Assembly (NCBI RefSeq): GCF_001632805.1
Contig: NZ_CP007220.1
Span: forward strand, 868,001-932,000
Source of the DNA: Mycobacteroides chelonae CCUG 47445
GTDB taxonomy: Bacteria > Actinomycetota > Actinomycetes > Mycobacteriales > Mycobacteriaceae
Direction: 5' to 3'
DNA: 64,000 nucleotides
A program made the translations under genes and the position numbers. Shown piece by piece: positions 3-51,591 of the stretch (within the stretch, counting starts at the first letter, position 1; each line of letters starts with the position of its first letter). The notes beneath the pieces were generated by a model, which was not told the origin of the DNA, made no database searches, and worked only from the letters and a program-made list of their open reading frames with translations.

Positions 3-1121
3 GCCACTGAGGAGCCGGCTCCGGCTCCGGCTCCGGCGCCAGATCCCTTGCCGACCAACTTCCCGGGCCCGCGCCCCGCGTTTGGCACGCCGTCCTACTT
101 TGCGCAGTTGGCGTTCGCGGTGCTGCATGTGCTGGCGTTGCCGATCACGGTTCCGGTACAGGCGATCATCGGCAGTACCGAGGGCGTGCCGACGGTGATT
201 GCCGCCGCGCTCAACGACTTGTCCAGCCTGCTGGGACAGGTGCCGAAGATATCGCTACCTGGGACCGACCCCGGGACCACGCCGGAGACCTCCTCGAAGC
301 AGGTCGATCAGGCTGTCGCCAAGCCGGAAACGGCGTCCGAGAAGTCAGAGACCACCAAGCGCGACGTCGATGCGAAGACTCCCAACACGGAGCACGGGGC
401 CAAGCCTGGCGATACGCCCGCAGAGGCGCCCAAAACCGAGCATGAGGCCAAGCCCGCTGAGACTCCGGCGGACGCGACGAAGGTAGATCCGGCTAAGGCA
501 GATCCGACGAAGGCTGTCGACCCGACTAAGGCTGTCGAGCCCACGAAGGTCGTTGAGCCGAAGGTTGACCCGACGAAGGCTGTTGAGCCCACGAAGGTTG
601 TTGACCCGACGAAGGCTGTTGAGCCCACGAAGGTTGATCCGACTAAGGCTGTTGAGCCCACGAAGGTCGTTGAGCCCAAGGTAGACCCGGCGGCGGCGTC
701 GACGAAGCCCGAGCCTGCCAAGCCCGTTGCGGTCAAGCCGGAGACCAAGCCCGAACCGGTCAAGCCGGAGACCAAGCCGGAACCGGCCAAGCCTGAACCC
801 GCCAGCAGCCCGGTGAAGGTCGTCCGCGACAGCCTGAAGTCGACACCCGGTGGAACCACCACCACCGGCGGCACCAAGACGACCGAGGGATCCAAGGGCG
901 CTGAAACGGACAGCAAGACGCCCGGTGCGTCTACGGCGACCAAGGTTCGCGAAGGATCGTCCCCCTCCGCGGGTGGCACGTCCGATAAGCCCGCGGAGAA
1001 GTCCTCGACGGAGAAGCCGTCGACCGGCAAGAGTTCACCGTCATCGGAAGGGAGTTCGCATTCCTCCGAAGGAAAGTCGCACTCTTCCGAGGGCAAGTCA
1101 CACGCTGGATCTACTGACTGA
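3..1121 (+). CDS. Secreted Ala/Pro/Lys-rich protein, 5' end cut by window edge
   Basis: The frame is open to the left edge, so the true start lies outside; the in-frame TTG at 48 is probably internal. The visible part begins Pro/Ala-rich and has one hydrophobic module (about 60 residues, containing ALPITVPVQAI and LNDLSSLLGQVP) that resembles the duplicated module of the protein at 4227-5789. A long low-complexity region follows, with short repeats of the type DPTKAVEPTKVV and EPAKPE, then a Ser/His/Gly-rich tail ending KSHAGSTD. Three other proteins in this window have the same layout and related last residues. Its stop overlaps the convergent yaaA stop region by 11 bp. Cell-surface location is inferred from composition and paralogues; biochemical function is unknown. 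Confidence 0.75.
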   Translation, partial: ATEEPAPAPAPAPDPLPTNFPGPRPAFGTPSYFAQLAFAVLHVLALPITVPVQAIIGSTEGVPTVIAAALNDLSSLLGQVPKISLPGTDPGTTPETSSKQVDQAVAKPETASEKSETTKRDVDAKTPNTEHGAKPGDTPAEAPKTEHEAKPAETPADATKVDPAKADPTKAVDPTKAVEPTKVVEPKVDPTKAVEPTKVVDPTKAVEPTKVDPTKAVEPTKVVEPKVDPAAASTKPEPAKPVAVKPETKPEPVKPETKPEPAKPEPASSPVKVVRDSLKSTPGGTTTTGGTKTTEGSKGAETDSKTPGASTATKVREGSSPSAGGTSDKPAEKSSTEKPSTGKSSPSSEGSSHSSEGKSHSSEGKSHAGSTD

Positions 1122-1857: not shown

Positions 1858-1976
1858 GCCACAGACCGTAGCGAACTGGCCGCCGCCGACGGCGCAGCGG
1901 GTCGACAGCTGCGATGAGTTTTGGTGGTCTGGATGGTCGATATGGGTGAGTGCCCCATCCAGTACAAGGAGACCCC

Positions 1977-2759: not shown

Positions 2760-2768
2760 TCGCGGATA

Positions 2769-4226: not shown

Positions 4227-5789
4227 GTGCGCGTTCGCCTTCGTGCCACGGCTGCCGCGGCGGTTTGCAGTGTCTGCATCTCCGCGTCGGCTTCCGTGCC
4301 TACGATTCAATCTCTCAGCGCCAGTCCGGAACAGCACCGGACCGTCTCGACGCAGTCCTATGTGCTGACGTCGAACGAAGGCTCACTGGCGCCGTCGAGC
4401 ATCGGCTCGCTGGCGACATTGCCCGGCGTGTCAGGTTCGGCCGCGACACCTTTGGCCGCGGCTGCTACTCCGGCTCCGAGTTTGTTCCAGGCGATTCAGC
4501 CGGTGTTCACGGTGTTGGGTGGGGCGTTGACGCTGCCGTTCAATATCCCGTTCTGGTTTGTGACGGGTCAGCTGAACGCGGCCGCGAATCAGAAGCTGAT
4601 CAATGATTTCGTGACCGCTATCGGTCAGTTGCCGGGTGTGCCTGCTGCGGTGTTGTCGTATCTGGCGGGTATTCCGTCGCAGACGCTGCCGACCATCCCG
4701 TCGATTCCGGGTTTGACTGCGGCCTCTCCCACCGTCAAGACGGCGGCGTTGTCTGCGCCGACTGCTGCGGCCGCTACTCCGGCTCCGAGTTTGTTCCAGG
4801 CAGTTCAGCCGGTGTTCACGGTGTTGGGTGGGGCGCTGACGCTGCCGTTCAACGTTCCCTTCTGGTACGCAACGGGTCAGCTGAACACCGCGGCGAATCA
4901 GAAGCTGATCAATGATTTCGTGACCGCTATCGGTCAGTTGCCGGGTGTGCCTGCTGCGGTGTTGTCGTATCTGCAGGGGATCACGACTCAAACGGCTCCG
5001 ACCATCCCGACCATCCCGGGTCTCACCTCCCTGGTGACTCCTTCTTCGAAGCTGGTCACGAACGCTGCGGTGGCTCAGTCCGATGCCGCAAAGGTTGACG
5101 TCGCGAAGTCGGAAGTCACTAAGACCGGAACCGTCGAGGAAGCGGCCAAGCCGGCCACCCCGGCGGAGTCGGTGAAGGTAACGACTCCGGCCGAGCCGGC
5201 CAAGCCTGCGGAATCCGTCACCCCCGCGGAGTCGGTGAAGGTGACGACGCCCGCCGAGCCGGCCAAGCCCGCGACCCCGGCTACGCCCGCGGATTCGGTC
5301 AAGGTGACCACTCCGGCCGAGCCGGCCAAGCCCGCGGAAGCCGCCACCCCCGCTGAACCGGTCAAGGTGGCCACCCCGGCTGAGGCCGTCAAGCCGGCCA
5401 CACCGGCCGAGCCTGCTAAGCCGGCGGCTCCCGTCGACGCCGCCAAGCCGGTGGAGTCGAAGGTCAATGTGCCGAAGGTCAAGCTGCCCACCCCGGTCAC
5501 CAAGGTCGGCGAGGTCAGCGGCGGAGTCGCGACGAAGGCCGATGAGTCGGCCAAGGCCGACAAGAACGAGAAGGCCGATTCCAAGGACACCAAGTCCGAT
5601 AAGGGGTCCGCGCCGAAGAAGTCTGAAAATGACTCTTCAGCTGCGAAGAAGCCTGAGAGTGCGGCATCGTCTGCCGGGAAGCCGGAGTCCGCTTCGAGTT
5701 CCTCGTCGAGCTCGTCATCGAGTGACTCGCACTCGAGCAACTCGGGTGGTTCCTCGTCCGGTTCCTCGCACAAGGCGTCGTCGGACTAG
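4227..5789 (+). CDS. Secreted protein with duplicated hydrophobic module and Ala/Pro/Lys and Ser tail
   Basis: About 520 residues. GTG 4227 was chosen because AGAAGGGG at 4211-4218 lies 8 bp upstream and the product then begins VRVRLRATAAAAV, a plausible export signal. Two near-identical modules of about 87 residues, spaced 103 residues apart, each contain PSLFQA(I/V)QPVFTVLGGAL, NQKLINDFVTAIGQLPG and VPAAVLSYL. Next come some 150 residues of Ala/Pro/Val/Lys repeats (TPAEPAKPA, TPAESVKVT), a charged Lys/Asp stretch, and a poly-Ser tail ending SSHKASSD. It is paralogous to the gene at 3-1121. Export and surface exposure are inferred; no enzymatic motif was found. A strong hairpin follows the stop. 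Confidence 0.8.
   Translation: MRVRLRATAAAAVCSVCISASASVPTIQSLSASPEQHRTVSTQSYVLTSNEGSLAPSSIGSLATLPGVSGSAATPLAAAATPAPSLFQAIQPVFTVLGGALTLPFNIPFWFVTGQLNAAANQKLINDFVTAIGQLPGVPAAVLSYLAGIPSQTLPTIPSIPGLTAASPTVKTAALSAPTAAAATPAPSLFQAVQPVFTVLGGALTLPFNVPFWYATGQLNTAANQKLINDFVTAIGQLPGVPAAVLSYLQGITTQTAPTIPTIPGLTSLVTPSSKLVTNAAVAQSDAAKVDVAKSEVTKTGTVEEAAKPATPAESVKVTTPAEPAKPAESVTPAESVKVTTPAEPAKPATPATPADSVKVTTPAEPAKPAEAATPAEPVKVATPAEAVKPATPAEPAKPAAPVDAAKPVESKVNVPKVKLPTPVTKVGEVSGGVATKADESAKADKNEKADSKDTKSDKGSAPKKSENDSSAAKKPESAASSAGKPESASSSSSSSSSSDSHSSNSGGSSSGSSHKASSD
4464..4973 (+). repeat. Direct tandem duplication within the 4227 gene
   Basis: About 200 bp starting GCTACTCCGGCTCCGAG at 4464 recurs at 4773, and CTG after TTGTCGTAT at 4662 recurs at 4971, giving a constant 309-bp (103-codon) offset. 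The copies differ at only a few positions over their conserved part, indicating recent duplication or gene conversion. Confidence 0.9.
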
Positions 5790-36056: not shown

Positions 36057-36057
36057 G

Positions 36058-37391: not shown

Positions 37392-39734
37392 TTGTCCAAG
37401 CGGCATCGAAAGTCATCCAAAAAGGTCGTCGTCCAACGCACCGTGACGGCGGTCGGCGCCGTCGCCGCGACTGCCAGCTTGGCTTTTGTCGGGCCCACCG
37501 CGCAGGCGGCCGCGGCGGCGCCGGACTACAAGGGTGCGGTCACCGACTCTAAGGACGCGCTCAATAACTACTTATCCGGGACTAATGCGATCGGATCGGC
37601 TGCCGGAGGCGTCTGGAATCCCATCGCTCAGGGATCCGGAGGGCTGCTCCCGACGTTCGGGACGAGCCTTACCCACTCCAATCTGACCAGCATCGCCGAC
37701 CTCCCGGATGTGCTGCGGAACCTCGCAAGCACTCCGCTCCCGACGGCTGTTCCGGGAGTCATTCCCGCGATCAAGATTCCCGGGCAGGGTTTCGTCGACC
37801 TGCCACTGCCGACGACCATCCCGGGCGCCAACCTGCTCAATGGTCTGGCCAACGCGCTTGACGGTGTGTTCAACAACCCCATCATCGGGCCCGTCGTCAA
37901 CCAGCTTCCGCCCCTGAGCGACATCGTCGACGGACTGATCGCCGAGCAGGACAAGTTCACGGCGGGCTACAACTGGCCGCTGCTTCAGGCCAGCGGCCTG
38001 ACAACCATCACCAACACCTTTGTGCAGACACCGAGCGGGCTCAACATCAAGATCCCGGCCTCGCTGGACCCGCTGGGCATCTTGCCCGACTCGGTCCGAA
38101 TCCTGCCCGATGGCACCTTGCCGAACGTGACGGCCTGGGTCCCGATGGGTGCGGGAAACTACACATTCCCGCTGGGGATGGAGACCGGATGGTGGGCGAC
38201 CGCGCCCACCTTGGTGGTCGACGGCGGTGCCGTGAACGTTCCGCAGACCGTGCTGTCGATTCCCATGTGGGCCAACGGCATCAAGGCTCCACTGGGGCTG
38301 GGGCAGGCAGGCCAGTTCAATGCACATGTCCTCATCCCGACGCAGAACGGTATCTACTCGCCGGTCGGCACGACGTTGTCCAACTTCTCCGTTCCGATGC
38401 TCGGCCTGGGTATGACGAATCTCAATGTGACGACCGGAAACTATCTCGGCACCAACGGATTCAATATCAACAACGGGCAGAACATGATGGTGTTGCAGAC
38501 GCCGTTCTCCGGGGCGCTGCCGATACCGATCGTCTATTCCCTGGGTGGCTTCAACATGGGGACCGAGGGCATGGGCTTCACGCTGCCATCGCTGTTCGGT
38601 GTTGGGCTCATGCCGACATTCCAGATCGGCACGGCACCGGGGGCCAACACGCCTCTGGGAATCATCCCGCCCAACCTGATTCCCACGGGTGGCATCGTGC
38701 CAACCCAGCTCATCACCGTCTCCGGCCTGATCAGTACCGCGCTCGGAATACCGGACCCGACAGTCGAACTCGCCAAGGCTCTGACTCCGCTGTACAAGGG
38801 TTTGGTTACGCCCGTCATGACACCGATCTCGGACATGCTCACCGCGCAGTACGGGAATCTGTTCAATGGTGCGGCGTCGAACACCCTGCAGGCCTCCAAG
38901 TTCTACAAGGATGTGATGACGCAGCTCGCCAGCGTGATCGGTGCGGCTCCCGCGCCGCTCTCGTCTCCGGCGCCCAACACCTTGGCGGCCACCGATACGC
39001 CCGCACCGGCGGCCACGCACGTCGAGGCTTCTGCGCCGGCGCAGAAACTGGGCGCTGCGACGGCACCTGAGGCCAAGCAGCTTGAGGCTCCGAAACTGGA
39101 TCTCACCTCGAACCTCGTCGCCGCCAAGGACAAGGTTGTCGAGAAGGTCGCGCCGGCGCCGCTTTCCGCATCCGCATCCAGCGCTTCGGAATTGAGTGCG
39201 ACGCCGATCGGCGAAGCGGCAGCTCAACCTGCTGCCGCTGCCGCTCCCACGCCGGATGTCGCGAAAGAGGCCCCCAAGGCCGAGGCGAAGGAAGACTCGA
39301 AAGACAAGGAGAAGCCGGCGAAGCCGGTCGTGAAGGAGAAGCTGCAGGACAAGGTCGATAAGGCGAATAGTGCGCTGAAGGATTCGGCCAGTGGGTCGAT
39401 CAAGCAGACGAGGGGTGCGATCACCTCTACGGTGACTAACACGATCGAATCTGTGACTTCTACTCAGTCCGAATCCAAAGCTGCTGAGGCGAATAAGGAT
39501 TCAGGCACGTCGTCGGTGACCAAGAGCGACTCCGATAGCGGCAAGCATCATGAGGATTCCTCGGGTGCGTCCAACAAGGTGAAGGTCAAGGTGGCCTCGC
39601 CCAGTGAGTCGGGTGGAAAGCATCGCGCGCCCGAGGCGTCGTCCGGTGGTGGTTCGAGCGCGGGCGGTTCGGAAGGTTCGGGTGCCCATGGCGGATCGTC
39701 GTCAAGTGCAGGAAAGCACTCGGCGAGCGACTAG
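37392..39734 (+). CDS. Large secreted protein with Ser/Gly/His-rich C-terminal tail
   Basis: About 780 residues. TTG 37392 is preferred: the GGAGAGGG element sits upstream and aligns with the start of its paralogue at 48655, and the product begins SKRHRKSSKKVVVQ plus a hydrophobic segment ending in AQAAA, a clear export signal. The middle (about 50-520) is a hydrophobic, Gly/Pro/Asn-rich domain (ILPDGTLPNVTAWVPMGAGN, LLQASGLTTITNTFVQT) that I cannot name. After it come Ala/Pro-rich spacers, a Lys-rich KEKLQDKVDKANSALKDSA segment and a tail rich in Ser, Gly and His ending GKHSASD. The last 140 residues are almost the same as those of the 48655 protein. Surface function is inferred. Confidence 0.78.
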   Translation: MSKRHRKSSKKVVVQRTVTAVGAVAATASLAFVGPTAQAAAAAPDYKGAVTDSKDALNNYLSGTNAIGSAAGGVWNPIAQGSGGLLPTFGTSLTHSNLTSIADLPDVLRNLASTPLPTAVPGVIPAIKIPGQGFVDLPLPTTIPGANLLNGLANALDGVFNNPIIGPVVNQLPPLSDIVDGLIAEQDKFTAGYNWPLLQASGLTTITNTFVQTPSGLNIKIPASLDPLGILPDSVRILPDGTLPNVTAWVPMGAGNYTFPLGMETGWWATAPTLVVDGGAVNVPQTVLSIPMWANGIKAPLGLGQAGQFNAHVLIPTQNGIYSPVGTTLSNFSVPMLGLGMTNLNVTTGNYLGTNGFNINNGQNMMVLQTPFSGALPIPIVYSLGGFNMGTEGMGFTLPSLFGVGLMPTFQIGTAPGANTPLGIIPPNLIPTGGIVPTQLITVSGLISTALGIPDPTVELAKALTPLYKGLVTPVMTPISDMLTAQYGNLFNGAASNTLQASKFYKDVMTQLASVIGAAPAPLSSPAPNTLAATDTPAPAATHVEASAPAQKLGAATAPEAKQLEAPKLDLTSNLVAAKDKVVEKVAPAPLSASASSASELSATPIGEAAAQPAAAAAPTPDVAKEAPKAEAKEDSKDKEKPAKPVVKEKLQDKVDKANSALKDSASGSIKQTRGAITSTVTNTIESVTSTQSESKAAEANKDSGTSSVTKSDSDSGKHHEDSSGASNKVKVKVASPSESGGKHRAPEASSGGGSSAGGSEGSGAHGGSSSSAGKHSASD
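39321..39734 (+). repeat. Long direct repeat, copy 1 (3' end of the 37392 gene)
   Basis: Two blocks, about 39321-39442 and 39541-39734, are nearly the same as 51169-51290 and 51391-51591, separated by a divergent stretch. The copies are in the same orientation, about 11.85 kb apart, and flank the glycan cluster. Confidence 0.88.
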
Positions 39735-40876
39735 AGGCGCACGGCTCCCAGCACGATATCGGCGATCCGGGAACGGAACGCCTCGGGTGAGAATCCGCAC
39801 GCCTGCGACCGGATGGCGCTGGTGTCGTAGTCGGCGGGGTTGAAGTCCCGCATCAGCTCGGCGAGCTGTGCTATGACGGCGTCATCCGGGCCGGCCTGTA
39901 CGTGTTCACCGGTAATGCCGGGCTCCACGGTGTCCAGAGCACCTCCCGCGCCCAGCGCCAGGACCGGTGTTCCGCACGCCATTGCCTCGACGGGGACGAT
40001 CCCGAAGTCCTCCACGCCGGGCATCAATAGGGCGCGGCATCGCCGGTACATGTCCAGGAGAACCTCGTCGGATGCGGCGCCGAGAAAGGTGGTCTCGGGC
40101 CCGGCGATTTCTTCTAGGTGATCGCGGAATCGTCCCTCGCCCAGCACCACTAGGCGGCAATTGGCCCGTTGCGCGGCCCGGATGGCTAGGTCCGCACGCT
40201 TGTACGGAACCAGCCTGCCCGCACACAAATAGAAGTCCTCGCGGGCAATCGACGGATCGGGAGAGAACCTGTCGATGCGTACGGGTGGGCTGATCACTGT
40301 CGACGGCAGCCCCCACCAATCGCGAATCCGCTCCGCCACGGCATGTGAGTTGGCGATGACATGCGATAAGCGGGGTGCTGCCCGCAGTTCGCCCCGGCGC
40401 GCGAGGTTCCCCAATGCGGACAGGGCGATTCGTCCTGCCCGGCTTGCCATCTCGTGATCACGAAATGCGCGGTCCCATGCCCAGCGGGCCGGGCTGTGCA
40501 CGTATGCGATGACGGGAGCATCGGTGGCGAATGCCGCCTGGGTGGCGAATGAGTGATGACTGATCAGCACCGCGTCGAGGTCATCGCCGAGCGGGAGCTT
40601 CCTCAGGGCGCTGGGAACCAGGGGAAGCAGTGGTGCGTGCGACCTGCGTCCGGTAGCGCTGTAGGCATTGTCCAGCCAGGTCCCCGAAATCGGTTCGTGC
40701 GGTGCATCGTCCGGCCAGCCCGCGGCTTCCAATACCTGCTGGCGGCAATGGGGTTCCGTGATCGGCGCGAAGACTTTCGCCTGCGGCCAGGCCTTCATGA
40801 ATTCGGCGACCACCAATTCCGAGCCGCCGAACTCGGTGAAACGTTCATGGACGATCGCTATACGCGATGAGTTCAT
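39731..40876 (-). CDS. Glycosyltransferase family 4
   Basis: A 381-residue GT-B fold enzyme. IVHERFTEFGGSELVVAEF is the N-terminal nucleotide-sugar-transferase opening; LCAGRLVPYKRADLAIRAA begins the second Rossmann domain, and EDFGIVPVEAMACGTPVLA carries the E-x7-E motif of retaining GT4 enzymes. It is the last gene of the minus-strand glycan operon; its stop overlaps the convergent 37392 gene by 4 bp. Donor and acceptor are unknown. Confidence 0.88.
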   Translation of the reverse strand: MNSSRIAIVHERFTEFGGSELVVAEFMKAWPQAKVFAPITEPHCRQQVLEAAGWPDDAPHEPISGTWLDNAYSATGRRSHAPLLPLVPSALRKLPLGDDLDAVLISHHSFATQAAFATDAPVIAYVHSPARWAWDRAFRDHEMASRAGRIALSALGNLARRGELRAAPRLSHVIANSHAVAERIRDWWGLPSTVISPPVRIDRFSPDPSIAREDFYLCAGRLVPYKRADLAIRAAQRANCRLVVLGEGRFRDHLEEIAGPETTFLGAASDEVLLDMYRRCRALLMPGVEDFGIVPVEAMACGTPVLALGAGGALDTVEPGITGEHVQAGPDDAVIAQLAELMRDFNPADYDTSAIRSQACGFSPEAFRSRIADIVLGAVRL

Positions 40877-40886
40877 AGTTCCCTCC

Positions 40887-41498
40887 TCAGCATCCGGGGG
40901 TCAGAAAAGCCTTGACGTAACTGCCGGACTGCCGGACGAACATCCACGACCAGAAGGCAACTCCGGAAGGAGTGGGACTAGCGACCATGGTGAGCTCCCC
41001 GTCGAAACACTTTCCGACGATGTAACGAGCACGCGAGACGTGTGGCGTGAAGGTGATGACGATGATGTGATGCCAGCCGAGTTCCTGTGCCTTGGCGCGT
41101 ATTTCCTGGGCCTCGCCCTCGGTGGTCCAGGGGTCTGGGATGAAGCAGCTGACCGTGAATGTGAAGTGGCCCTTGCAGTACTTGTCCATGTTGCGGTCAT
41201 TGGCACCGGTCGACTGTGCGATCAGCAGGTACGGTGCGTACCCGCGTTTCGCCAGATCCAGCCCGACGTCGAATCGCTCGTAGGGAGTGCCGCCCAATAC
41301 GACGATCGCGTCGGCGGGCCGTAGCGGATCGGTCTGCGGGTGCATGTACACACGCCAGCCAGCGGTGACGAACCCCGTCGTGAGCACGGCGATCGCGATC
41401 AAGGCCAACAGGACTCGCCTGCGCCACCGTGGTCGCCGGTCGGCGGCAGGCACTGAGGGCTCATCGGTGGGCATTTCCGTGGCGTCAGTGGAGCTCAT
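40887..41498 (-). CDS. YdcF/SanA/ElyC-like DUF218 membrane-anchored protein
   Basis: A 203-residue protein: one N-terminal membrane helix (about 28-48) and a DUF218 domain (ADAIVVLGGTPYERFDVGLDL, then WHHIIVITFTPHVSRAR). Relatives (SanA, ElyC, YdcF) affect envelope polysaccharide and cell-wall assembly. It sits inside a glycosyltransferase operon, overlapping the preceding gene by 14 bp, which supports a role in glycan export or assembly. Confidence 0.83.
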   Translation of the reverse strand: MSSTDATEMPTDEPSVPAADRRPRWRRRVLLALIAIAVLTTGFVTAGWRVYMHPQTDPLRPADAIVVLGGTPYERFDVGLDLAKRGYAPYLLIAQSTGANDRNMDKYCKGHFTFTVSCFIPDPWTTEGEAQEIRAKAQELGWHHIIVITFTPHVSRARYIVGKCFDGELTMVASPTPSGVAFWSWMFVRQSGSYVKAFLTPGC

Positions 41499-42489
41499 CG
41501 GCGATTTCCTTGGCGCGGTCGACGTAGCGGTGCGATCCCTGCGTCACGCGAAGGTGGCCTGCCCCCGCGATCTTGGCGGCTTGCGCCGGATGGCAAGCAC
41601 ACCACTGCAGGATCTCGCCAAGTTCGGCCTCGTTGGAGAACAGCAGACATTCGGTTCCCTCGTTGAGCAGCTCGCTGTGTTCATCGGTGCGTTCCCCGAC
41701 GAACAGCCCACCGCACGCGGGTATTTCGAACGTTCGACAGGTGTGGGTGTCGCGGTTGTCAGAGTTCAGCAAGACCAGGTTCGCGGTGACGGACGCCACG
41801 GTGGTCGCGAAGTGATCGCCGTAGACGGCGCCACCGACTGTGGCTCCGGTGGCCTGCAGCGAGGGCATGCGTCGCCAGCCCGGACCACGAACAAGAAGAT
41901 TCTTCCCGTGCTCGTTGCCGAGTCGGGCGATCATGTCGGATCTGTCCGGGCGTCTGGCTCCGATGAACCCCACAAGATACTGCCGTGCAACCCGTTTCGC
42001 GCACGCACGATGCCACGCGGGGTCGTAGGCGCTGCGTACGAACTTCACTCGGCGCGCGCCTCGGTCTTGCAACTCGGTCACGTTGTGGCGTTTGGTGGTG
42101 ACCACCAGATCCCACTCGCGTTCGTGCGCCAGGTAATCAGTCGTCGTGTTGTAGGGATTGCCGACATCATCGGGGCTGTAGTGGACGCGGACTGCTGCCG
42201 GAACCTGGAGTAGTCGTGCCTGGTCCAGGTGGATCGATTTGAACCCGAAGAGCATGTCGGGAGTGAAATCTCGCGCAATGGCATCGATCTGATCATGCAC
42301 GGAGTTCTGCACCCAGGATGCCCTCCGGCGCATGGCCTTTGAGTACACCCAGGCCGGTGACAGCCTGGCAGGCAAGGTGACTCTGGTGGTGTCCACCACG
42401 ACCACCTCATGGCCCGCCTGGCGGAATCCGTCCGCCATCGACCGGGCATTACTGCCCACCCAGTCATCTCCGATAAAGAGGATCTTCAT
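41485..42489 (-). CDS. CgeB-like glycosyltransferase
   Basis: A 334-residue protein beginning MKILFIGDDWVGSNARSMAD, a Rossmann-type start, with a C-terminal CRTFEIPACGGLFVGERTDE motif and EHSELLNEGTECLLF, both typical of CgeB/DUF3880-type spore-maturation glycosyltransferases. ATG 42489 overlaps the flippase stop (ATGA); the upstream extension lies within the flippase gene and was rejected. It probably adds one sugar during assembly of the cluster's glycan. Confidence 0.83.
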   Translation of the reverse strand: MKILFIGDDWVGSNARSMADGFRQAGHEVVVVDTTRVTLPARLSPAWVYSKAMRRRASWVQNSVHDQIDAIARDFTPDMLFGFKSIHLDQARLLQVPAAVRVHYSPDDVGNPYNTTTDYLAHEREWDLVVTTKRHNVTELQDRGARRVKFVRSAYDPAWHRACAKRVARQYLVGFIGARRPDRSDMIARLGNEHGKNLLVRGPGWRRMPSLQATGATVGGAVYGDHFATTVASVTANLVLLNSDNRDTHTCRTFEIPACGGLFVGERTDEHSELLNEGTECLLFSNEAELGEILQWCACHPAQAAKIAGAGHLRVTQGSHRYVDRAKEIADELH

Positions 42490-43784
42490 CGCACAACACC
42501 CTCTTGCTCCGATTCGGTCTCGATGAGCACGCCTCGTTCCCGTCTTGCCAGGTGCCTGATTCGGACCAGATACCAAATGGCTACTCCGAATTCGGCGCCG
42601 ATCACGCCGCCAATCAGTGCCCACACGGAGTGGCTCCAGGATGCTGCGATCAGCCCGGCCACCGACGCCGCTGTACCTACCACCGACGCTACGAGGACAC
42701 CATGCATGTCCTGACGTACCGGTAACAGCGCGGTGCTGATGTACGAGCTGATAGTGCTTGCCGGAAGAATGAGAAGCTCGGCGCGCAGTAGGCCGACGGC
42801 CCCGAGGAACTCGCTTCCGAAAATGAGGTGAACTATCGGTGTCGCGAGCACCCAGAGTAGAGCTGCTGCGAGTATGGCCACCGCGACGGCGCCGCGTAAT
42901 CCCCGCAAGCCGGTGCGCCAGAAGTGTTCGTGTCCACTGCGTTTCGCCATCCGGGGCAGCAGCACCAATCCGATCATATCCAGGAGAGATTGCATGGCCC
43001 TGACCAGACGATCACTCGCCGAGAACAGGCCCAGCGACACGGCGTCGAGCATGGCGGAGTAAATGGCCGGTGCGCCTTGCCCGTATCCGGTGGTGAGAAG
43101 TCGTGAGGTGGCGATCGGCCAGCTGGTGCGGAGGATGCGGCCAGGTGCGTAGGGGCGACACAGTCCGCCGAAGGTGCGCAGGCTGTCCCACCAGGTGCCG
43201 GCGACCGTCAGAACTGAGGAGCCCAGCAGGCACAGCACCGCGGTGGACGCGTGTGGGGAATGCGGTAGTAGCACGATGAGAAGAACGAGGTAGGCGATGC
43301 GCCCGGAGCCCTGGTAAACCGCGGATGCGACAAACCGCCCCTGCCCAATGAGCAGCCAGTCATCGGAGGTGGCCCAGAGCCCACCGGCGAAGAGTCCCAA
43401 CAGAATCATGTGCACATACGAGGGCGCCCCGGCTATCCAGCCGACGCCGAACGCGGCGCCGAGCACGGCCAGGGTGATCAACCTCAGGGTTAAGTAGTCG
43501 GTACGCACCTGCCGGAGTTCGGCGGGGGTGTTGCGTAGGGCGGGCACTTGAGCCGCGAGGAACGGTGTCATGCCCAGGTCGACGACGATGGAGCCGAAGA
43601 AGTACGCCGCCATCCCCACGGCCAATAGCCCCATTCCCGCCGGGCCCAGAATTCGGGCAAGTAGTGGCACGGTCGCGAATGTCACGACGTATTGGCCGTA
43701 CTTGCCGAAGACAACGGCCCCGAAATCCCGGGCCAGTCGTAATGCGCGGGGAAGCGTTGCGCTGTTTCGCGGTCCCCTAGACAC
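42486..43784 (-). CDS. Wzx-type polysaccharide flippase (MOP/MATE superfamily)
   Basis: A 432-residue membrane protein with about twelve hydrophobic segments, beginning FGKYGQYVVTFATVPLLARI, the usual opening of O-antigen/teichoic flippases. It should flip a polyprenyl-linked oligosaccharide across the membrane. GTG 43784 overlaps the preceding glycosyltransferase by 8 bp. Such flippases are rare in mycobacteria, and no Wzy-like polymerase is recognisable in the cluster. Confidence 0.85.
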   Translation of the reverse strand: MSRGPRNSATLPRALRLARDFGAVVFGKYGQYVVTFATVPLLARILGPAGMGLLAVGMAAYFFGSIVVDLGMTPFLAAQVPALRNTPAELRQVRTDYLTLRLITLAVLGAAFGVGWIAGAPSYVHMILLGLFAGGLWATSDDWLLIGQGRFVASAVYQGSGRIAYLVLLIVLLPHSPHASTAVLCLLGSSVLTVAGTWWDSLRTFGGLCRPYAPGRILRTSWPIATSRLLTTGYGQGAPAIYSAMLDAVSLGLFSASDRLVRAMQSLLDMIGLVLLPRMAKRSGHEHFWRTGLRGLRGAVAVAILAAALLWVLATPIVHLIFGSEFLGAVGLLRAELLILPASTISSYISTALLPVRQDMHGVLVASVVGTAASVAGLIAASWSHSVWALIGGVIGAEFGVAIWYLVRIRHLARRERGVLIETESEQEGVVR

Positions 43785-44961
43785 TGCGCTCTTCTAACGA
43801 TGCAGTCGCGCGACGGTTGAGGACCTGCGCGAAGAACGATGCGACGGTCTGTGCCGAGTCGGCGATATCGAATTTTCTGGCCCGAGACTGACCGGCTTGC
43901 GCCAATCGGATTCGAAGGTCACGGTCTTCAATGAGACGGTCGAGGGCATCGGTCAACTGATCAGCGTTGCCGGCGTCGACCAGCAGCCCGTGAACTCCCG
44001 ATTCAATAGCCTCAGCGGGACCGCCGGGCTGGGTGGCGATGACTGCGCAGCCCGCGCGCAGCCCTTCGACGACGACCTGCCCGAAGGGCTCGGCGATGAC
44101 CGAGCAATGCACCAGGATGTCGGCGGTGGAGAGGATGTCGGAGGGGTCGTCGAGATGCCCGGTGAATGTCACCGGCAGCTGCAGTTCGCTTGCCAGGTCT
44201 TCTAATTCGGTTCGAAAGGAATCCTCGCCGAAGAAGGTGCCGCCGACGAGGTACACGCGCTGAGGCTTAACGCTGGTGTTGGCCAGCGCCCTGAGGAACA
44301 CGTCTTGTCCCTTCCATCGCGTCAGTCTGCCGACGACAGCGACAACGGTCTCGGCGGGCGGGCGCTGGGGCGGGTGTTCTGTGTCGAGTGTCCGCAGAAA
44401 ATCCAGCCCGGGGTACGCCACGACGCCCGGGCGCCGCCGTGGCCGGAGGGAGTTCTGGGTGGATCGGCTGTTGGCGATGTATCCGTCGGACACCATCATG
44501 CCGATCATTCGGATAAGGAATGCCAGTGTGGCACCGAAATATTCAGCTGATATCCGATCGTGAACGTGCCAAATCAAGGGAATCCGCGCTCGTTTGGCCG
44601 CAACGGCAGACATGATGAGAGCTTTTGTGCTCCCCGCGATCAGCACATCGGCTCGGTGCTCCCGCACGACGGCTCCCAGATCCCACCCGAGCCGAACCAG
44701 TGCCGCGGCTCCGGTCAACCTGCGCAACCATCCGGAACCGTCAATGGTGACGCTTCGGCTATCGAAAGTGTTGGCCAACAATGATGTTTGTATGCCTTGG
44801 GACTTCATTGCGCTGACCATGGGGCCGTCTTCGGTGTAGATCACGGACGGTTCGACGGTGAACTCCGCGGGCACATTGCGTAGCGCCGACAGCAAGCGCG
44901 AAGTTGCCAGTTCCGCGCCGGAGGGCGCGGCCGTGTGGGCGACGAATACTGCCCGGATCAC
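43777..44961 (-). CDS. Glycosyltransferase family 4
   Basis: A 394-residue GT-B enzyme. VFVAHTAAPSGAELATSRLL is the N-terminal domain opening; VVAVVGRLTRWKGQDVFLRA and IAEPFGQVVVEGLRAGCAVIA (quoted in pieces in the family E-x7-E motif) mark the donor-binding domain. GTG 44961 overlaps the upstream stop (GTGA). Earlier in-frame residues read as non-coding. Probable role: sugar addition in the surface-glycan pathway. Confidence 0.88.
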   Translation of the reverse strand: MIRAVFVAHTAAPSGAELATSRLLSALRNVPAEFTVEPSVIYTEDGPMVSAMKSQGIQTSLLANTFDSRSVTIDGSGWLRRLTGAAALVRLGWDLGAVVREHRADVLIAGSTKALIMSAVAAKRARIPLIWHVHDRISAEYFGATLAFLIRMIGMMVSDGYIANSRSTQNSLRPRRRPGVVAYPGLDFLRTLDTEHPPQRPPAETVVAVVGRLTRWKGQDVFLRALANTSVKPQRVYLVGGTFFGEDSFRTELEDLASELQLPVTFTGHLDDPSDILSTADILVHCSVIAEPFGQVVVEGLRAGCAVIATQPGGPAEAIESGVHGLLVDAGNADQLTDALDRLIEDRDLRIRLAQAGQSRARKFDIADSAQTVASFFAQVLNRRATASLEERSV

Positions 44962-46049
44962 GCGCTCAACTCCGAATACACGGCATGGTGACGCTGCGCG
45001 GTGGCCGCCCAGGAGAACGACTCGGCATGTCGTCGGCACTGCTGCGGGCTAGGGAGCACGCCATCGAGTGCCGAAATGAGGCGCGCCCCAAGTGCTTCAG
45101 CGTTGTCGGATGGCACGATCAACGTGGGGTCCAGACCGCGTACCGCATCCGGGAGTCCGCCACAGTCGGTGACCACGGCAGGCCTGCCGGTGGCAAGGGA
45201 TTCGAGTGCGATCAATCCGAACCCCTCAAGAGCCACGGATGGTACGACGGTGAGGTCGGCAAGTGTGTAGAGCTGTGTCAGGGTGGGGTCGTCCACACGT
45301 CCGGTGAATTGGATGCTGTCGTCCAGACCCGCCGCTGACACCTGTGCTCTCAGATCATTTTCGGCGGTGCCCGTGCCCACGATCATCAGGCAGGCATCTG
45401 GATGCGCGGATACGACGGCCGGCCACGATTCGATGAGGCGGTGAATTCCCATGCGGTGTTCGAGCCTGCGCACGCAGAGCACCGTGCGCCGCCCGGTGGG
45501 GGCCTCCAACGGTGGCAGCAGTCCGAATCGGTCGAGGTCGACCCCGGGTGGAATGACTTCGATGCGATCCGCCGGTATCCGATAGTCCTCGATCAGAACG
45601 TCACGGAATCGATCCGACAGGACGATCATCCGCTCGGCGCCGGTGTACCGGAGGCGCTCGACGACGTACTTGGCATGGGAACGGAAGGCTCCGGCTCCTG
45701 CGAACCTGCTTTCTGCCGCCCAGGGTCCATGGAAGTGCACAACTAGGCGGCTGCGGGTGCGCCATCCGGTGGCCGATGGTCCATACAGGCAGAAGTGGCG
45801 ATCAAGAATACCGGGTTGTCGCAGCCCGGATCGATCGTTGAACGCGGTGAGAACCCGCGTTCGAGTGGACCCGCCGGTGGCGCCCCAAGACCATCCACCG
45901 TCAGAGGGCACCCCGAATGCGGCGGCCGACAATTCAATGTTGTCCCGGTGGCGGAGCGCGGTGAACAGATCGGTGAAGTACCGATTCAACCCGCCCGGCA
46001 ACGAGGAGAACCACTCCGCGCCGGTCATGTGCACTCTGATGGGCGCCAT
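44958..46049 (-). CDS. Glycosyltransferase family 4, first gene of the glycan operon
   Basis: About 363 residues. An N-terminal GGLNRYFTDLFTALRHR loop and the C-terminal EGFGLIALESLATGRPAVV (E-x7-E) are GT4 hallmarks; VLCVRRLEHRMGIHRLIESW opens the second domain. ATG 46049 has GAGG at suitable distance; ATG 46061 four codons upstream is an alternative. The gene heads the six-gene minus-strand operon and is divergent from the sugar-phosphate transferase across 0.8 kb. Confidence 0.86.
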   Translation of the reverse strand: MAPIRVHMTGAEWFSSLPGGLNRYFTDLFTALRHRDNIELSAAAFGVPSDGGWSWGATGGSTRTRVLTAFNDRSGLRQPGILDRHFCLYGPSATGWRTRSRLVVHFHGPWAAESRFAGAGAFRSHAKYVVERLRYTGAERMIVLSDRFRDVLIEDYRIPADRIEVIPPGVDLDRFGLLPPLEAPTGRRTVLCVRRLEHRMGIHRLIESWPAVVSAHPDACLMIVGTGTAENDLRAQVSAAGLDDSIQFTGRVDDPTLTQLYTLADLTVVPSVALEGFGLIALESLATGRPAVVTDCGGLPDAVRGLDPTLIVPSDNAEALGARLISALDGVLPSPQQCRRHAESFSWAATAQRHHAVYSELSA

Positions 46050-46833
46050 ATCAGGCCTCATCTCTACTGCTGGCGATCTTTGCTATCGGTGACGGCTGCG
46101 GCATCGGTCCGACGTCGCGCGTCGTCCATCGCCACGCATGTGTTCGCCGACATGCGTGGTCCGCCTTGGGGGCTCGGCCCCATCCCTCATGTTTGTTCAA
46201 TGTTCAACCGACACAACATGCACGTGTTCGTGGCCGCCGATAGGTTCATATCCATTGATGCTCATAATGCCGGAGTGGGCCAAACAATATTTCCGACTAG
46301 CACGATGCTCTTCGGATGCGAAATTCATGTGCGCACCGATGTTTCGATGCGCCTAGTTCATGCCGCCAGACAGCCGACTCGTCTCTAGCCTGCAACACAC
46401 CGCTGGTGCTCCGCAACCTGAGGCAGAGGTTTCGCTCACTGAAAGTTGGGTTTGACCTTGCCTTTAATTTGCCCGCAACTGGCAGGCGCGTAGTGTTCAA
46501 GATAACGCTGTGGCGGGCAGGGACGGGCGCGTTCCGCGTTGCCTGAATCAGCCTGACCTGGCTATGTTATGAAAATGTTACTTGCCGGTGAGCGTTGTGT
46601 GATTGGCGTGAAGATTAGCAAAGGGTGTCGGCGGGAGATGTTTATTAGATGATTCTTATTTCCCTGCAATAAAACTTTCATTTGTGGCGCTGCGATGGGT
46701 GAAGTAGCGTGACAGTCATCACGTGGCGTGTTTTTGGTCGTTATGGAAACCTCTACACGTAAATAGGTCGGGCTCAATTGCCTAAATCGTCCATACGAAT
46801 CAACCGATATGAACGAACGGGTCAAGTGCACTT
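46050..46833. promoter_or_regulatory. Long AT-rich divergent regulatory region of the glycan cluster
   Basis: No gene is supported. The region is clearly richer in A and T than its neighbours, particularly 46550-46830, which would suit binding by the nucleoid protein Lsr2 (inference). It contains a CRP-type palindrome at 46708-46723 and several short stems. Short frames here have no coding character. Confidence 0.5.
46708..46723. promoter_or_regulatory. CRP-type binding site (CGTGA-N6-TCACG)
   Basis: A perfect palindrome with the half-site and spacing of the mycobacterial CRP (Rv3676) consensus, 111 bp before the ATG of the polyprenyl-phosphate sugar transferase. Confidence 0.65.
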
Positions 46834-48300
46834 ATGGATTTGAAGAGCGTCGTTAGTGACGGAATTCAACGGAGGGTAGAAGCGCGCCCCGGAGGGCTGT
46901 TCTACCTGCACCGACGATGGGCGCCGGCGGCTGACCTGGTGGCCATCGCTCTCACGTCGCTGGTCTCGTATCAGCTCGCGCATCATCTGCTGTCCAGTCG
47001 GCAGGACCTAGGTCGTTGGTATGCGGCAACAGATGTTGTGATCGCCGTCACGTGGTTTGCTGCACTCTCGCTGCACACGGTCGGCCCGGGAAAGGCGTTG
47101 CGGGCGGTCTTGCAGCAATGGCAGACGGTCGTCAGCGTCACGTTCCAGTTGTTCACGATCGTGCTGCTCACTTATCTCATCTCGCGCATCGAGCTGATCG
47201 ATATTCGGCATCTGGTCATCGAGATACCGCTTGGACTGCTGGGCATACTGGTCGCTCGGTATGGGCTGCGGCGTATCTGGGGCTCGGCGGGCCGGACCCC
47301 GGTGCTGCTGGCGGGCGATCACGATGCCGTCCGGGAGATGGTTACCGCCTTTGGTCGTCACCGGGATAGTGGCTTCGAGGTTGTCGGCGCGTGCACCCCC
47401 GGAGTTGAGCATTGGCTCGGGGGGCAGGCGATTGAAGTAGGTGATCACCGGGTGCCGATCGTCGGCGATGACCGCCACGTGGTCGAGGCTGCGCAGCGGA
47501 CATCGGCCCAGATCGTCGCGGTCGCGATGACCAATGGGCTTGGACGCAAGGAGCTTTCAGTGCTGGCCTGCGAGCTCGGAGATCTGGGAATCGAGCTCGC
47601 GGCATCGCCGGGGGACGTGGATGAGACTGTCGTGACGACAGCGGAGCGGGGTCTGGAGCGGGTCCACATGCTGGAGATGCTCGCCCCGGGCCATCGCCGG
47701 GCCCGATCGATGTCGAAGGAGGCATTCGACATGGCGTTCGCGGCGGCCGCCATTCTGGCCACCGCGCCGGTGATGCTCGCGATTGCCGCGGCCATCAAGC
47801 TCACCAGTACCGGGCCGGTGCTCTATGTGTCTGAACGAATCGGCTTGGACGGCGTCCCATTTCGGATGATCAAGTTCCGCAGTATGTACACGGGCGCCGA
47901 CCGCGATACCGCGGCGATGATCGACTCGGCAGGAAGCACGCCCGTCTTCTTCAAGGCGAAGGAAGATCCCCGCATCACCCCGGTGGGGGCGTTCATCCGG
48001 AAGTACAGCCTCGATGAGCTGCCCCAGTTCTTCAACGTGCTGTTCGGTGACATGAGCGTTGTCGGGCCGCGGCCGCAGGTGCAGCGGGAGGTCGACGCTT
48101 ATGACGAGACGATGCGGCGACGGCTCCTGGTGAAACCGGGTGTTACCGGCCAATGGCAGGTCAGCGGCCGTAACGATCTTTCCGTCGATGAATCTATCCG
48201 TCACGACATCTCGTATGTCGACAACTGGTCCATGGGGCTCGATATACGCATCATTTCCCGGACTGTCGGCGCGGTGGTGCGCAGCGAGGGCGCGTACTGA
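46834..48300 (+). CDS. Polyprenyl-phosphate sugar-1-phosphate transferase (WbaP/CpsE-like)
   Basis: A 488-residue initiating transferase. Four to five N-terminal helices and a flavodoxin-like CoA-binding-type domain (about 140-260) precede a C-terminal bacterial sugar transferase domain: FDMAFAAAAILATAPVMLAI helix, then RIGLDGVPFRMIKFRSMY, KYSLDELPQFFNVLFGDMS, VGPRP and KPGVTGQWQVSGRN. It links a sugar phosphate to polyprenyl phosphate, starting glycan assembly. It stands divergent from the glycosyltransferase/flippase operon. ATG 46834 lacks a strong Shine-Dalgarno. A two-tier terminator follows. Confidence 0.92.
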   Translation: MDLKSVVSDGIQRRVEARPGGLFYLHRRWAPAADLVAIALTSLVSYQLAHHLLSSRQDLGRWYAATDVVIAVTWFAALSLHTVGPGKALRAVLQQWQTVVSVTFQLFTIVLLTYLISRIELIDIRHLVIEIPLGLLGILVARYGLRRIWGSAGRTPVLLAGDHDAVREMVTAFGRHRDSGFEVVGACTPGVEHWLGGQAIEVGDHRVPIVGDDRHVVEAAQRTSAQIVAVAMTNGLGRKELSVLACELGDLGIELAASPGDVDETVVTTAERGLERVHMLEMLAPGHRRARSMSKEAFDMAFAAAAILATAPVMLAIAAAIKLTSTGPVLYVSERIGLDGVPFRMIKFRSMYTGADRDTAAMIDSAGSTPVFFKAKEDPRITPVGAFIRKYSLDELPQFFNVLFGDMSVVGPRPQVQREVDAYDETMRRRLLVKPGVTGQWQVSGRNDLSVDESIRHDISYVDNWSMGLDIRIISRTVGAVVRSEGAY

Positions 48301-48468: not shown

Positions 48469-48654
48469 TCCTTGGGTGGTACCCCTAACTGGCGACGAGC
48501 TTTCCCTCGAGTACCAGATGCTGATTGCACATGGCTGTGGTACGGGGCGTTCCTTGCAAATTCGCTGCGAATAGGCATTGTCGATTTCTCAATGGCCAGT
48601 GGGACTTTCGGCGTACAACGCTGCTCAAATTTTCTGAGGAGAGGTGTCGTGCTT

Positions 48655-51591
48655 ATGTCGGGTCGGGATGTTCGGTCGTCGAATAACGTTCCCAAGCGAT
48701 CGGGGAAGCAGGTCCTTGCCGGCGCGCCGGTGCCTGCCCGCCTGCCATTTTCTACGTCGCGGGTGATGTTGGCGACGACGGCGCTGGTGACAGTGACGGC
48801 GCTGACAGTCGGTGTGGCGGCGCCGACCACCGTCGATTTCTCACGCCCCGAGCCCCAGGCCGCGGTAGCACCCGCTCCACGTGCGATGAGTCTGGAAGTT
48901 CAACTTGCCTCGATGGTGGGCGTTTACGGGGTGGGGCCTGTCTTCCAGGCGTTGCGCCTTGCCGGGGTCGGCAGCCCGGATGCAGTCCTGACTAACGCGG
49001 TGGGGTTGCTTAACGATCCCAGTTTGTCCTCGGCGGTTAAGACGCTGCTGGACGTGCTGAACACGATCAGTCCTGTCGAGCCTAAGGTGCCCGGTTTCGG
49101 GCCGGCGGGCGTTTTCGATTCCGTGAACGAGCTCAGTTACAGCATGGGCGCTTTCAGTGGCCTTGAAGGCGTTGTAGATACTCTCAATAGCCCGTGGATC
49201 AATTGGATTCCCGGTATTAGCGCGATCGGCAATGATTTGCTGACGGTACTGAACCAGCGGCGTGCATTCATTCTCGGGGATGGTCTCGGCGGCACCGATA
49301 ACGCGCTTGCGTTACGCCAGATGATCAAAGACGTCGAGTCCGACAGTGCCTTGTGGGGGGACGATAAGCACGGTGTGACTGGCGTTGTCGCTGTGCTGTT
49401 TCGCAATACGTCGCGCCCTGGCGGCGGCCTGATGGCGATGGTCACCCCCATCTCGGAGTTGTTCGGGCTGAATCTCAATAATCCCGGCGCGGGCAGCTAC
49501 ACGAATGCAGGGGCCAATGCTGGTCTTGCCACCAAGGTTCTCAATATCTCCGTCACCGATGTCGGGTGGAAGTACGACCTACTTTCGGACGCTCCGTCGA
49601 CGCTCGATCCACTTGCCTGGGCGAATTCTGTCGCGGGTGTGGTCATGCCCACCTACCTGATCCCCGATAAGGACAAGGCAGTCCCGGCGGCCGCCAACCT
49701 TGTCGGTCAGTTGCTTCCCGGGCTCATCAACGCAGGGTTGGTCACTGCTGATCCGACGGGGGGACAGGGGCTCCACCTGCTTACCCAGGGCACGATCCTC
49801 GATGTGGTGAATGGCCCCCTGAACAGTGCGCTGAATGCGGTTCTGGGGCCGGTCTTCCGGTCGATCCTTGGCGCTGACTTCAAGTTCCCAGTGCAGGGCA
49901 TCTCCACCTACGTCACCTATGACTCGGGTAACCTTCCGCTCCTCGAGCCCTTCCACATGCTGCCTCGCCTACTCGGATACACGGGCCTGGCGGACATCAC
50001 CACACCCGTTGCCGACTCGTTTGAGAGTGTGCTCACCCAGCTGGTCGCGCTTGGTTACCAAGATGTCAAGGGCACCACCGACGCCAACGGCGTGATGACC
50101 TTTACCCGCGGTATGGATATGGCCGGTGTGCAAGCGGATGTTTTCAGGGCCCCGACCAACATCAACTGGGCGCAGCGCTTTGAAGTCCCGCAGACGGTGT
50201 TCAACGCGCTGATCGACGGTTTCAGCAATAACCTGCTGAGCCCGGAGAAGCAGAGACTCACGTTGTTCGGTAACAGCGCACTTGGGGATGCCATCTATAA
50301 GAACGCGTTGGTCATATCTGTGGCTCACGCGGTGCGCGAGGGACTGACCCGGCTCAAGAGCATCGCCAACCCCATGTTCAACCAGGCGCAGACCATGCTC
50401 AAGCCGGTGGCCGATGCACTCGACGCTGCCACAGTTCAGGTGAACAAAGTGATCGACCAGGGGCGTGCCGCGGTGAGGGCTCTGAACATCGATGTGAGCA
50501 AGCCACTGTTCGATGCGAATCGTGCGATCAACGAATCAACTAAGTCGTTGGATAACGGGCTTGTCGGAGCAGTGCAGAGCGCGGGTGCTCACGCAGTGGC
50601 GGCGCGTTCCACCGCGGCGCTGATTGCGATGCCGGAAACGCTACCCACGCCCCAACAGCTCACCGCCGGAACACCGGACGTTGCCTCGCACGTGCTGGGC
50701 ACCAACGGATCAGGCAAGGAAAAAGAAGCTGCCGTTGTCAACGGCGACGCCGCGTCGGCGCTCGAGAAGATCTCGTCCGCAGCGCCTTCCGCATCGAAAC
50801 CACGTGTGGTTGTGGACACTGAGTCCTCGGCGCAGCACGCTGCCGAATCGGCTAAGGACACCACGAAAGAAGACCTCAAGGCCGCGCCTCAGGCGGACAC
50901 GAAAGATAGGGACAGCCGGCTCAAGCCAGCAGTCAAGGAAGGGCTGCGCGACAAAGTAGACCAGTCACTCAAGAAGCAGGTGACTGACACCCAGGACACC
51001 GGCAGCGTCGCCGCTTCCACGGTAACCATTACCGATGCATCTGCCGCGGCGGCGAAGACTGACAGCGCTAAGCCGGTTGTGGATGCTGGGTCCAAGCCTT
51101 CTCAGAGCAAGCGGAACAACGACTCTGGTCAGCATCAGGAGGCCTCCAAAGATAAGGGGAAGCCTGTCAAGCCGGTCGTGAAGGAGAAGCTGCAGGACAA
51201 GGTCGATAAGGCGAACAGTGCGCTCAAGGATTCGGCTACCGGGTCGATCAAGCAGACGCGGGGTGCGGTCACCTCTACGGTGACCAACACCGATGAATCC
51301 GCCACCTCAACGAAGACCGACAGTGCGAAGTCGGCTCCTGCCGATGCGGCTGGTTCGTCGAAGGGAAACAAGACCAAGCCGGACTCCGACAGCGGTAGGC
51401 ATCACGAGGAGTCCTCGGGTACGTCTAACAAGGTGAAGGTCAAGGTGGCTTCGCCCAGTGAGTCGGGTGGAAAGCATCGCGCGCCCGATGGGTCGTCCGG
51501 TGGTGGTTCGAGCGCGGGCGGCGGTTCGGAAGGTTCGGGTGCCCATGGCGGATCGGCTTCTAGTGGCGGAAAGCACTCGACGGGCGACTAA
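48655..51591 (+). CDS. Very large secreted protein, PE-PPE-like middle, Ser/Gly/His-rich tail
   Basis: About 978 residues from ATG 48655 (GAGGAGAGG 10 bp upstream, aligned with the paralogue at 37392). Export signal at about 35-65. The middle, about 90-560, has TYVTYDSGNLPLLEPFHMLP and SVLTQLVALGYQDV, which resemble the C-terminal half of the PE-PPE hydrolase-like domain; no GxSxG Ser nucleophile was recognised. Residues from about 560 are helical, then Ala/Lys/Asp-rich repeats, then the shared KEKLQDKVDKANSALKDSA segment and a tail ending GKHSTGD. No PE or PPE N-terminal domain is present. The role is unknown; surface display is inferred. Confidence 0.78.
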   Translation: MSGRDVRSSNNVPKRSGKQVLAGAPVPARLPFSTSRVMLATTALVTVTALTVGVAAPTTVDFSRPEPQAAVAPAPRAMSLEVQLASMVGVYGVGPVFQALRLAGVGSPDAVLTNAVGLLNDPSLSSAVKTLLDVLNTISPVEPKVPGFGPAGVFDSVNELSYSMGAFSGLEGVVDTLNSPWINWIPGISAIGNDLLTVLNQRRAFILGDGLGGTDNALALRQMIKDVESDSALWGDDKHGVTGVVAVLFRNTSRPGGGLMAMVTPISELFGLNLNNPGAGSYTNAGANAGLATKVLNISVTDVGWKYDLLSDAPSTLDPLAWANSVAGVVMPTYLIPDKDKAVPAAANLVGQLLPGLINAGLVTADPTGGQGLHLLTQGTILDVVNGPLNSALNAVLGPVFRSILGADFKFPVQGISTYVTYDSGNLPLLEPFHMLPRLLGYTGLADITTPVADSFESVLTQLVALGYQDVKGTTDANGVMTFTRGMDMAGVQADVFRAPTNINWAQRFEVPQTVFNALIDGFSNNLLSPEKQRLTLFGNSALGDAIYKNALVISVAHAVREGLTRLKSIANPMFNQAQTMLKPVADALDAATVQVNKVIDQGRAAVRALNIDVSKPLFDANRAINESTKSLDNGLVGAVQSAGAHAVAARSTAALIAMPETLPTPQQLTAGTPDVASHVLGTNGSGKEKEAAVVNGDAASALEKISSAAPSASKPRVVVDTESSAQHAAESAKDTTKEDLKAAPQADTKDRDSRLKPAVKEGLRDKVDQSLKKQVTDTQDTGSVAASTVTITDASAAAAKTDSAKPVVDAGSKPSQSKRNNDSGQHQEASKDKGKPVKPVVKEKLQDKVDKANSALKDSATGSIKQTRGAVTSTVTNTDESATSTKTDSAKSAPADAAGSSKGNKTKPDSDSGRHHEESSGTSNKVKVKVASPSESGGKHRAPDGSSGGGSSAGGGSEGSGAHGGSASSGGKHSTGD
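51169..51591 (+). repeat. Long direct repeat, copy 2 (3' end of the 48655 gene)
   Basis: Nearly the same as 39321-39734 in both sequence and orientation, except for a divergent central stretch. Confidence 0.88.

Follow-up and report, generated by a model that had tools for sequence, protein, structure and literature searches.

Exported proteins with Ser/Gly-rich tails in Mycobacteroides chelonae: a C-terminal module shared by two neighbouring genes, its end apparently exchanged by recombination

Four exported proteins and their locus

We analyzed a stretch of 64,000 nucleotides from Mycobacteroides chelonae CCUG 47445 (NZ_CP007220.1, positions 868,001 to 932,000; hereafter the window), belonging to a genome of 5.03 Mb in a single contig (G000), with a focus on four exported proteins with Ser/Gly-rich C-terminal tails, here called g1 to g4. 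The initial annotation had taken them for one family with related ends and had proposed a common sorting or anchoring role for these. Its four open reading frames are present, with the last residues it quoted, and the order of parts it described could be seen by eye in all four, namely, a hydrophobic, export-type N-terminal stretch, a domain, a spacer rich in Ala/Pro/Lys or Lys/Ser, and a Ser/Gly-rich end. The start of g1 lies upstream of the window (G000:C1:867292), and its N-terminus was likewise judged export-type by eye. The genes and their tails are thus real, and g3 and g4 carry one shared module, the end of which has apparently been exchanged by recombination. Neither a family of four nor a general sorting signal is well supported by the evidence, and the function of the tails is what we infer in the last section. 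The features that matter here are as follows.

1..1121, forward strand: g1, 3' part; the full gene (G000:C1:867292-869121) encodes an exported protein of 609 amino acids with two hydrophobic repeats, a K/P/T spacer and an S/G/H tail ending SHAGSTD
4227..5789, forward strand: g2, 520 amino acids; distant g1 paralog (30% identity) with two hydrophobic repeats and a tail ending SHKASSD
27861..36915, reverse strand: mce operon with six Mce and two YrbE genes, running divergently from g3
37392..39734, forward strand: g3, 780 amino acids; an export signal, a conserved domain rich in beta structure at about residues 46-517, and a disordered tail
39291..39731, forward strand: g3 tail module, homologous to the g4 tail (80% protein identity; DNA of the last 50 codons 93.2% identical)
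39731..46061, reverse strand: glycan gene cluster between the g3 and g4 tails (GT4 glycosyltransferases, DUF218, glycosyltransferase, polysaccharide flippase-like protein)
46834..48300, forward strand: exopolysaccharide polyprenyl glycosylphosphotransferase (TIGR03025)
48655..51591, forward strand: g4, 978 amino acids; exported, related to the PE-PPE (PF08237) hydrolases, carrying Gly at the position of the presumed nucleophile and ending in a disordered tail
51175..51588, forward strand: g4 tail module, homologous to the g3 tail, with weaker homology from about 50725
51834..52799, forward strand: GDPD-family protein, found in 4 of 10 Mycobacteroides loci, including all 3 with g4

Relatedness of the tails and exchange of their ends

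The tails were compared by local alignment against 500 shuffles per pair, counting the shuffles that scored as high as the observed alignment. For the last 40, 60, 100 and 200 residues, these counts were 0, 0, 0 and 0 for g3-g4; 5, 40, 2 and 0 for g1-g2; 12, 16, 1 and 0 for g2-g3; 238, 219, 82 and 7 for g2-g4; 292, 161, 61 and 1 for g1-g3; and 350, 266, 134 and 1 for g1-g4. The g3 and g4 tails are 52% identical over g4 residues 691-978 and 80% identical over g3 residues 634-780. When a profile of the g1 and g2 tails was run against g3 and g4, and the reverse, 11 of 12 tests did not go beyond shuffles (120 to 364 of 400 as high), the sole exception (23 of 400) being g2, tested over 80 residues with the g3/g4 profile. 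As far as the sequences tell, the tail is clearly common by descent only in g3 and g4. We rejected a single four-member family because the last 40 to 60 residues and the cross profiles fail to support it, although g2-g3 and the stretches of 100 to 200 residues speak to the contrary. The relatedness of all four ends was thus not confirmed, the tails of the two pairs being mostly no more alike than shuffles in alignments and profiles.

A profile-profile comparison of g3 and g4 gave a match confined to the tail (54 columns) and left their domains unmatched. By this comparison, the two N-terminal domains are unrelated, contrary to the hydrophobic domain that the pair had been thought to have in common. 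A shared C-terminal end on different domains, as first proposed, therefore stands for g3 and g4, where one module is joined to two unrelated exported domains, and falls for a family of four. The last residues are conserved only in part: a final D is found in 18 of 20 g3 proteins (leaving out P0020, which is frame-shifted at its end), in all 7 g4 proteins and in every one of the 7 g1 genes read, among them that of the window, and it is missing from 9 of 11 g2 proteins (2 of 11 have it).

The g1/g2 pair is a diverged pair of distant paralogs with an origin separate from that of g3/g4. Both have an export-type N-terminal segment and a pair of hydrophobic repeats, with 30% identity overall. Orthologs of g1 were found in four of the five named relatives, the search covering the own genome and those five. 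A search with g2 returned 39 matches, of which the good ones were named Mycobacteroides, one being named only Mycobacteriaceae bacterium, and the remainder scored low. The predicted structure of g2 was too poor to use (mean predicted local distance difference test [pLDDT] score, 39.5) and was discarded.

Ten Mycobacteroides loci, the window and nine others, were then compared. The mce genes adjoin g3 in all 10, g4 is present in 3, and the glycan cluster adjoins g3 in 8 and was not within the fetched stretch in the other two. In the window, the mce operon is followed by g3, the glycan cluster, the sugar transferase, g4 and the GDPD gene, in this order, and locus L104 is arranged alike. In sp. 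D16R12 (L032/L112), g4 comes after mce and g3 and ahead of the glycan cluster, the sugar transferase and the GDPD gene, and between g3 and g4 (L032, about 10427-10660) lie decayed pieces matching the region of the window's glycosyltransferase gene 37/38 (39609-40979).

Over the last 50 codons, g3 and g4 of the same genome are 93.2% (window), 96.7% (L104) and 84.7% (L112) identical, while the orthologous ends of L112 reach only 73.0 to 75.2% against the window or L104, their domains being 87.8 to 90.8% identical. When the last 55 codons of 12 tails were placed in a tree, the approximately unbiased test rejected a single clade of the three g4 tails (P = 3.1e-6). Over the last 50 to 55 codons, tree and identities thus show that the ends of the g3 and g4 tails depart from the separate histories of their genes. 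Since the tail ends do not group by gene, exchange by recombination is suggested, and the sequences point to a continued exchange between the two. Recombination accounts better than a sorting signal for the tail that g3 and g4 have in common.

On this basis, g4, absent from 7 of the 10 related loci, would most likely have gained the g3 module by recombination. The two tails are direct repeats flanking the glycan-synthesis cluster, and their ends would keep being exchanged. An unequal exchange between them could have duplicated the cluster, one copy being lost later, as a path to the arrangement in sp. D16R12; the rearrangement and the decayed remnant are observed, and tail-to-tail exchange is their putative cause.

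The g3 tail may also have been exchanged between strains. In sp. CBMA 271 (L107), the g3 tail joins the clade of the window (starred branch, 100/99) and the domain does not.

Farther along the window, sp. LB1 has genes 47, 48, 52, 53 and 54 (54427-62969; L110, 14343-19900) in copies 97 to 100% identical, next to this same locus, whereas the cluster neighbouring the region of genes 47 to 54 in sp. LB1 is only 80 to 88% identical to the window. By these identities, the five genes look like a recently transferred island.

Domains of g3 and g4 and reach of the tail

The g4 family is large, and its members in Mycolicibacterium are often named PE-PPE domain-containing. We found 201 relatives, of which 120 were listed; the motif at the presumed nucleophile was readable in 110 of these and unreadable in 10. 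Among the 110, the position is Ser in 94, Gly in 15 and Asp in 1, and an elbow-like motif, E-S-L/M/F-G-G, is present in 94. The Gly residue is carried by the window g4 (ILGDGLGG) and by the relatives closest to it (P0059-P0063 and P0065-P0067), including a Gordonia amarae metagenome-assembled genome and M. fallax. In the accessible part of PMC3037379, the PE-PPE active site is given as GxSxG/S with Ser, Asp and His. A GxSxG/S motif is absent from g4 at ILGDGLGG, the site that we take to be the putative nucleophile elbow. Because g4 has Gly where 94 of 110 relatives have Ser, it is probably an inactive hydrolase.

The window g4 had no match to PF08237 at an E value of 1. With a gathering cut-off of 21, P0066 (24.6 bits) and P0113 scored above it, P0060 (16.4) and P0088 (17.4) scored below it, and P0065 gave no match. 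The likeness to the secreted PE-PPE esterases/acyltransferases thus consists of the last 45 PF08237 positions, which g4 relatives match, and of the elbow-like motif. In contrast to those proteins, g4 has no PF08237 match and no PE or PPE domain match, carries Gly for Ser and ends in a long tail.

The g3 family also occurs in Tsukamurella and Mycolicibacterium. An AlphaFold2 model of g3 from 36 sequences (mean pLDDT, 57.7) showed a folded part at about residues 46-517 and a disordered tail, with pLDDT below 50 across residues 529-655 and 673-780. The structural neighbours listed for the domain were mostly outer-membrane barrels with middling Z scores (11.7 at best). A Foldseek search with the model returned nothing significant (best E value, 0.07; top two rows not barrels), and alternating hydrophobicity was absent from the ten strands predicted by that same model of mean pLDDT 57.7, 949 of 1,000 shuffles scoring as high. 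Compared with Gram-negative outer-membrane beta-barrels, the picture for the domain is thus mixed: the structural neighbours suggest a barrel and the strand pattern does not, and we do not claim one. A partnership with the mce genes is not pressed either, because the YrbE/Mce genes adjoining g3 throughout the Mycobacteroides loci lay within the fetched stretch of just 2 of 18 other genomes. In its accessible part, PMC9882608 leaves open whether further outer-membrane factors feed Mce1. The g3-family genes in G241, G137, G404 and G116 hold one in-frame TAG.

The search with a profile of the ends that the initial annotation had named was carried out with a profile built from all four tails, which can reveal further members and, by its making, cannot unify the four. 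In the own genome, it matched g1 to g4 and one extra site (G000:2455061; E value, 0.08), which was discarded since it runs antisense to an oxidoreductase gene, with 128 residues before the next stop; no fifth tail-bearing protein was found there. In the five named relatives, the 12 matches were orthologs of g1 to g4 by place and, where the ends could be read, by sequence. Among 396 genomes of the genus, 11 had matches. Ten of these are the genomes with a close form of g3, taken as Mycobacteroides partly because in all of them this g3 adjoins mce genes, and their 23 tail matches all fall at the last residue of an open reading frame. The match in the eleventh (G199; E value, 0.008) lies inside a chelatase-like gene, not at a C-terminus, and was discarded. 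The profile is thus no detector of generic low-complexity tails, having matched 11 of 396 genomes, and it recovered only orthologs of g1 to g4.

We also counted a DNA pattern standing for H-x3-D-stop, with TGG admitted as well and C or G required at the middle bases between; it occurred 74 times versus 62 for the reversed control, with no clear enrichment. We therefore rejected a genome-wide C-terminal signal, given the closed set in 396 genomes, the motif without clear enrichment and the lack of a fifth protein. Many substrates per genome with the same end were not seen in the own genome, the five relatives or the 396 genomes, which yielded g1 to g4 orthologs only. The common sorting or anchoring signal is accordingly unsupported, the more so as 2 of 20 g3 and the 9 g2 proteins noted above lack the final D.

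C-terminal sorting signals such as LPXTG and PEP-CTERM comprise a hydrophobic segment and a basic end. The tails resemble them in that one end is found on more than one exported domain, but they have neither a hydrophobic segment nor a basic end, were found in at most four genes per genome, and do not have invariant last residues. A literature search, with most subscription papers outside its reach, found no description of these tails.

What the tails may do

Outside Mycobacteroides, the listed relatives, set apart by identity and including a few fragments, often end in Ala-Ala: 99 of 113 g4-family proteins (P0065-P0177) and 23 of 36 g3-family proteins (P0022-P0057). The g4 relative of M. smegmatis, P0088, is among those with this ending. 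When the tails, minus their last two residues, were clustered at 65% identity, 26 of 38 g4-family and 16 of 29 g3-family clusters ended in Ala-Ala, where the composition of each tail would predict 1.3 and 1.0. As a background, 611 genes were called crudely from one tenth of genome G116, and 14 of them ended in Ala-Ala. At positions -3 to -8, no residue reached half of the tail clusters. Because two unrelated domains share a terminal Ala-Ala on tails that otherwise change, the extreme C-terminus may be under selection, and no other result here hints as strongly at a role of the end. In Mycolicibacterium g4-family tails, a K/R-H-A-A-D motif, a pattern chosen post hoc, occurs 43 to 80 residues before the end and recalls the GGKHSAGD end of Mycobacteroides.

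Taken together, we favor, with some reserve, the view that g1 to g4 are four exported envelope proteins of two origins, that g3 and g4 carry one module with exchanged ends, and that the tail serves as a flexible, modifiable tether with no dedicated sorting signal. Such a hydrophilic, Ser-rich tail would span or stick to a wall or capsule layer; it would be open to modification (O-mannosyl or O-acyl), would keep the domain at the surface, and would not be read by a dedicated sorting machine.

Several observations weigh against this view. The window and L104 offer a weak contrast, their orthologous ends being 96.6% (g3) and 90.7% (g4) identical. Over the last 130 codons, g3 and g4 are 79.8, 81.5 and 61.1% identical within the window, L104 and L112, and the orthologs are 95.9, 77.9 and 77.1% (g3) and 91.3, 63.7 and 61.9% (g4) identical; between window and L112, 77.9% for g3 and 63.7% for g4 stand against 61.1% for g3-g4 inside L112, so that the pattern is lost. 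Exchange would therefore be confined to the very end or be patchy. In the tree of 12 tails, the g3-g4 pairing of L112 has a support of only 83/85, one of nine inner branches is starred, and the contrast as a whole draws on three genomes from two lineages. The likeness of the ends fits repeated gene conversion and independent tail capture equally well. The result over 200 residues, where all four cross pairs stood above most shuffles, favors a four-way relationship. We think that the cross-pair likeness at 100 to 200 residues reflects a shared patchy composition, since shuffling, in our opinion, removes the patchiness of the tails and lets these pairs exceed the shuffles over long stretches. 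Finally, the terminal residues, with D in nearly all g3 and all g4 proteins, are more conserved than a pure spacer needs, and Ala-Ala ends are frequent in both domain families outside the genus.

These last points would be expected if the extreme C-terminus were a real, lineage-specific targeting or anchoring signal, KHSxGD in Mycobacteroides and Ala-Ala in Mycolicibacterium and Tsukamurella. The excess of Ala-Ala over expectation and over the G116 background, next to the variable positions -3 to -8, argues for such a signal. However, clustering leaves inheritance inside each family in place, 12 of 38 and 13 of 29 clusters (a few being fragments) do not end in Ala-Ala, nor does any of the six genes with disordered tails in the G116 sample. 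Within Mycobacteroides, moreover, only g3 and g4 end KHSxGD-like, and 2 of 20 g3 proteins do not. We consider this signal unlikely, if worth keeping in mind.

It is a degree more doubtful that the tails are non-functional low-complexity drift, homogenised only through recombination between repeats. Composition does account for most of the likeness of g1/g2 to g3/g4, and tail lengths and repeats vary freely, but Mycobacteroides has kept the ends and the GGKHRAP-type blocks throughout, and 10 of 10 g3 genes retain a long in-frame tail. We give the same low credence to a broader conjecture, in which unrelated exported proteins of Mycobacteriales would carry fast-changing disordered tails with only the extreme C-terminus fixed, to be read by an envelope machinery such as a mycomembrane inserter, a wall ligase or a mycoloyltransferase.

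The tails might also be substrates of O-mycoloylation, tethering the proteins to the mycomembrane. According to the accessible part of PMC11066868, this modification in Corynebacterium prefers Ser/Thr in flexible Ser-/Gly-rich stretches, often several close together, and the present tails, on exported proteins, are of the same kind. That text also states, however, that the modification is undemonstrated in mycobacteria, which lack strict orthologs of Cmt1. In PorH, as far as the accessible part of PMC12632848 goes, the mycoloylated Ser56 sits beside the last residue, 57, and the protein is reported linked to the cell wall; replacement of Ser56 alone left surface exposure intact, which only a double change with PorA stopped. 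We regard O-mycoloylation of these tails as improbable. Metal binding by histidine-rich tails is barely credible, as the two or three His residues within the last 40 of each tail are few and scattered rather than clustered.

A C-terminal rule, if true, would offer a handle on how exported proteins are placed in the outer layers of mycobacteria, and the present case shows how easily low-complexity ends pass for a shared signal. At this locus, two genes lying near each other have apparently swapped one tail end, and a glycan cluster may be shuffled through repeats carried within genes. A cheap and testable lead comes from the Ala-Ala ends.

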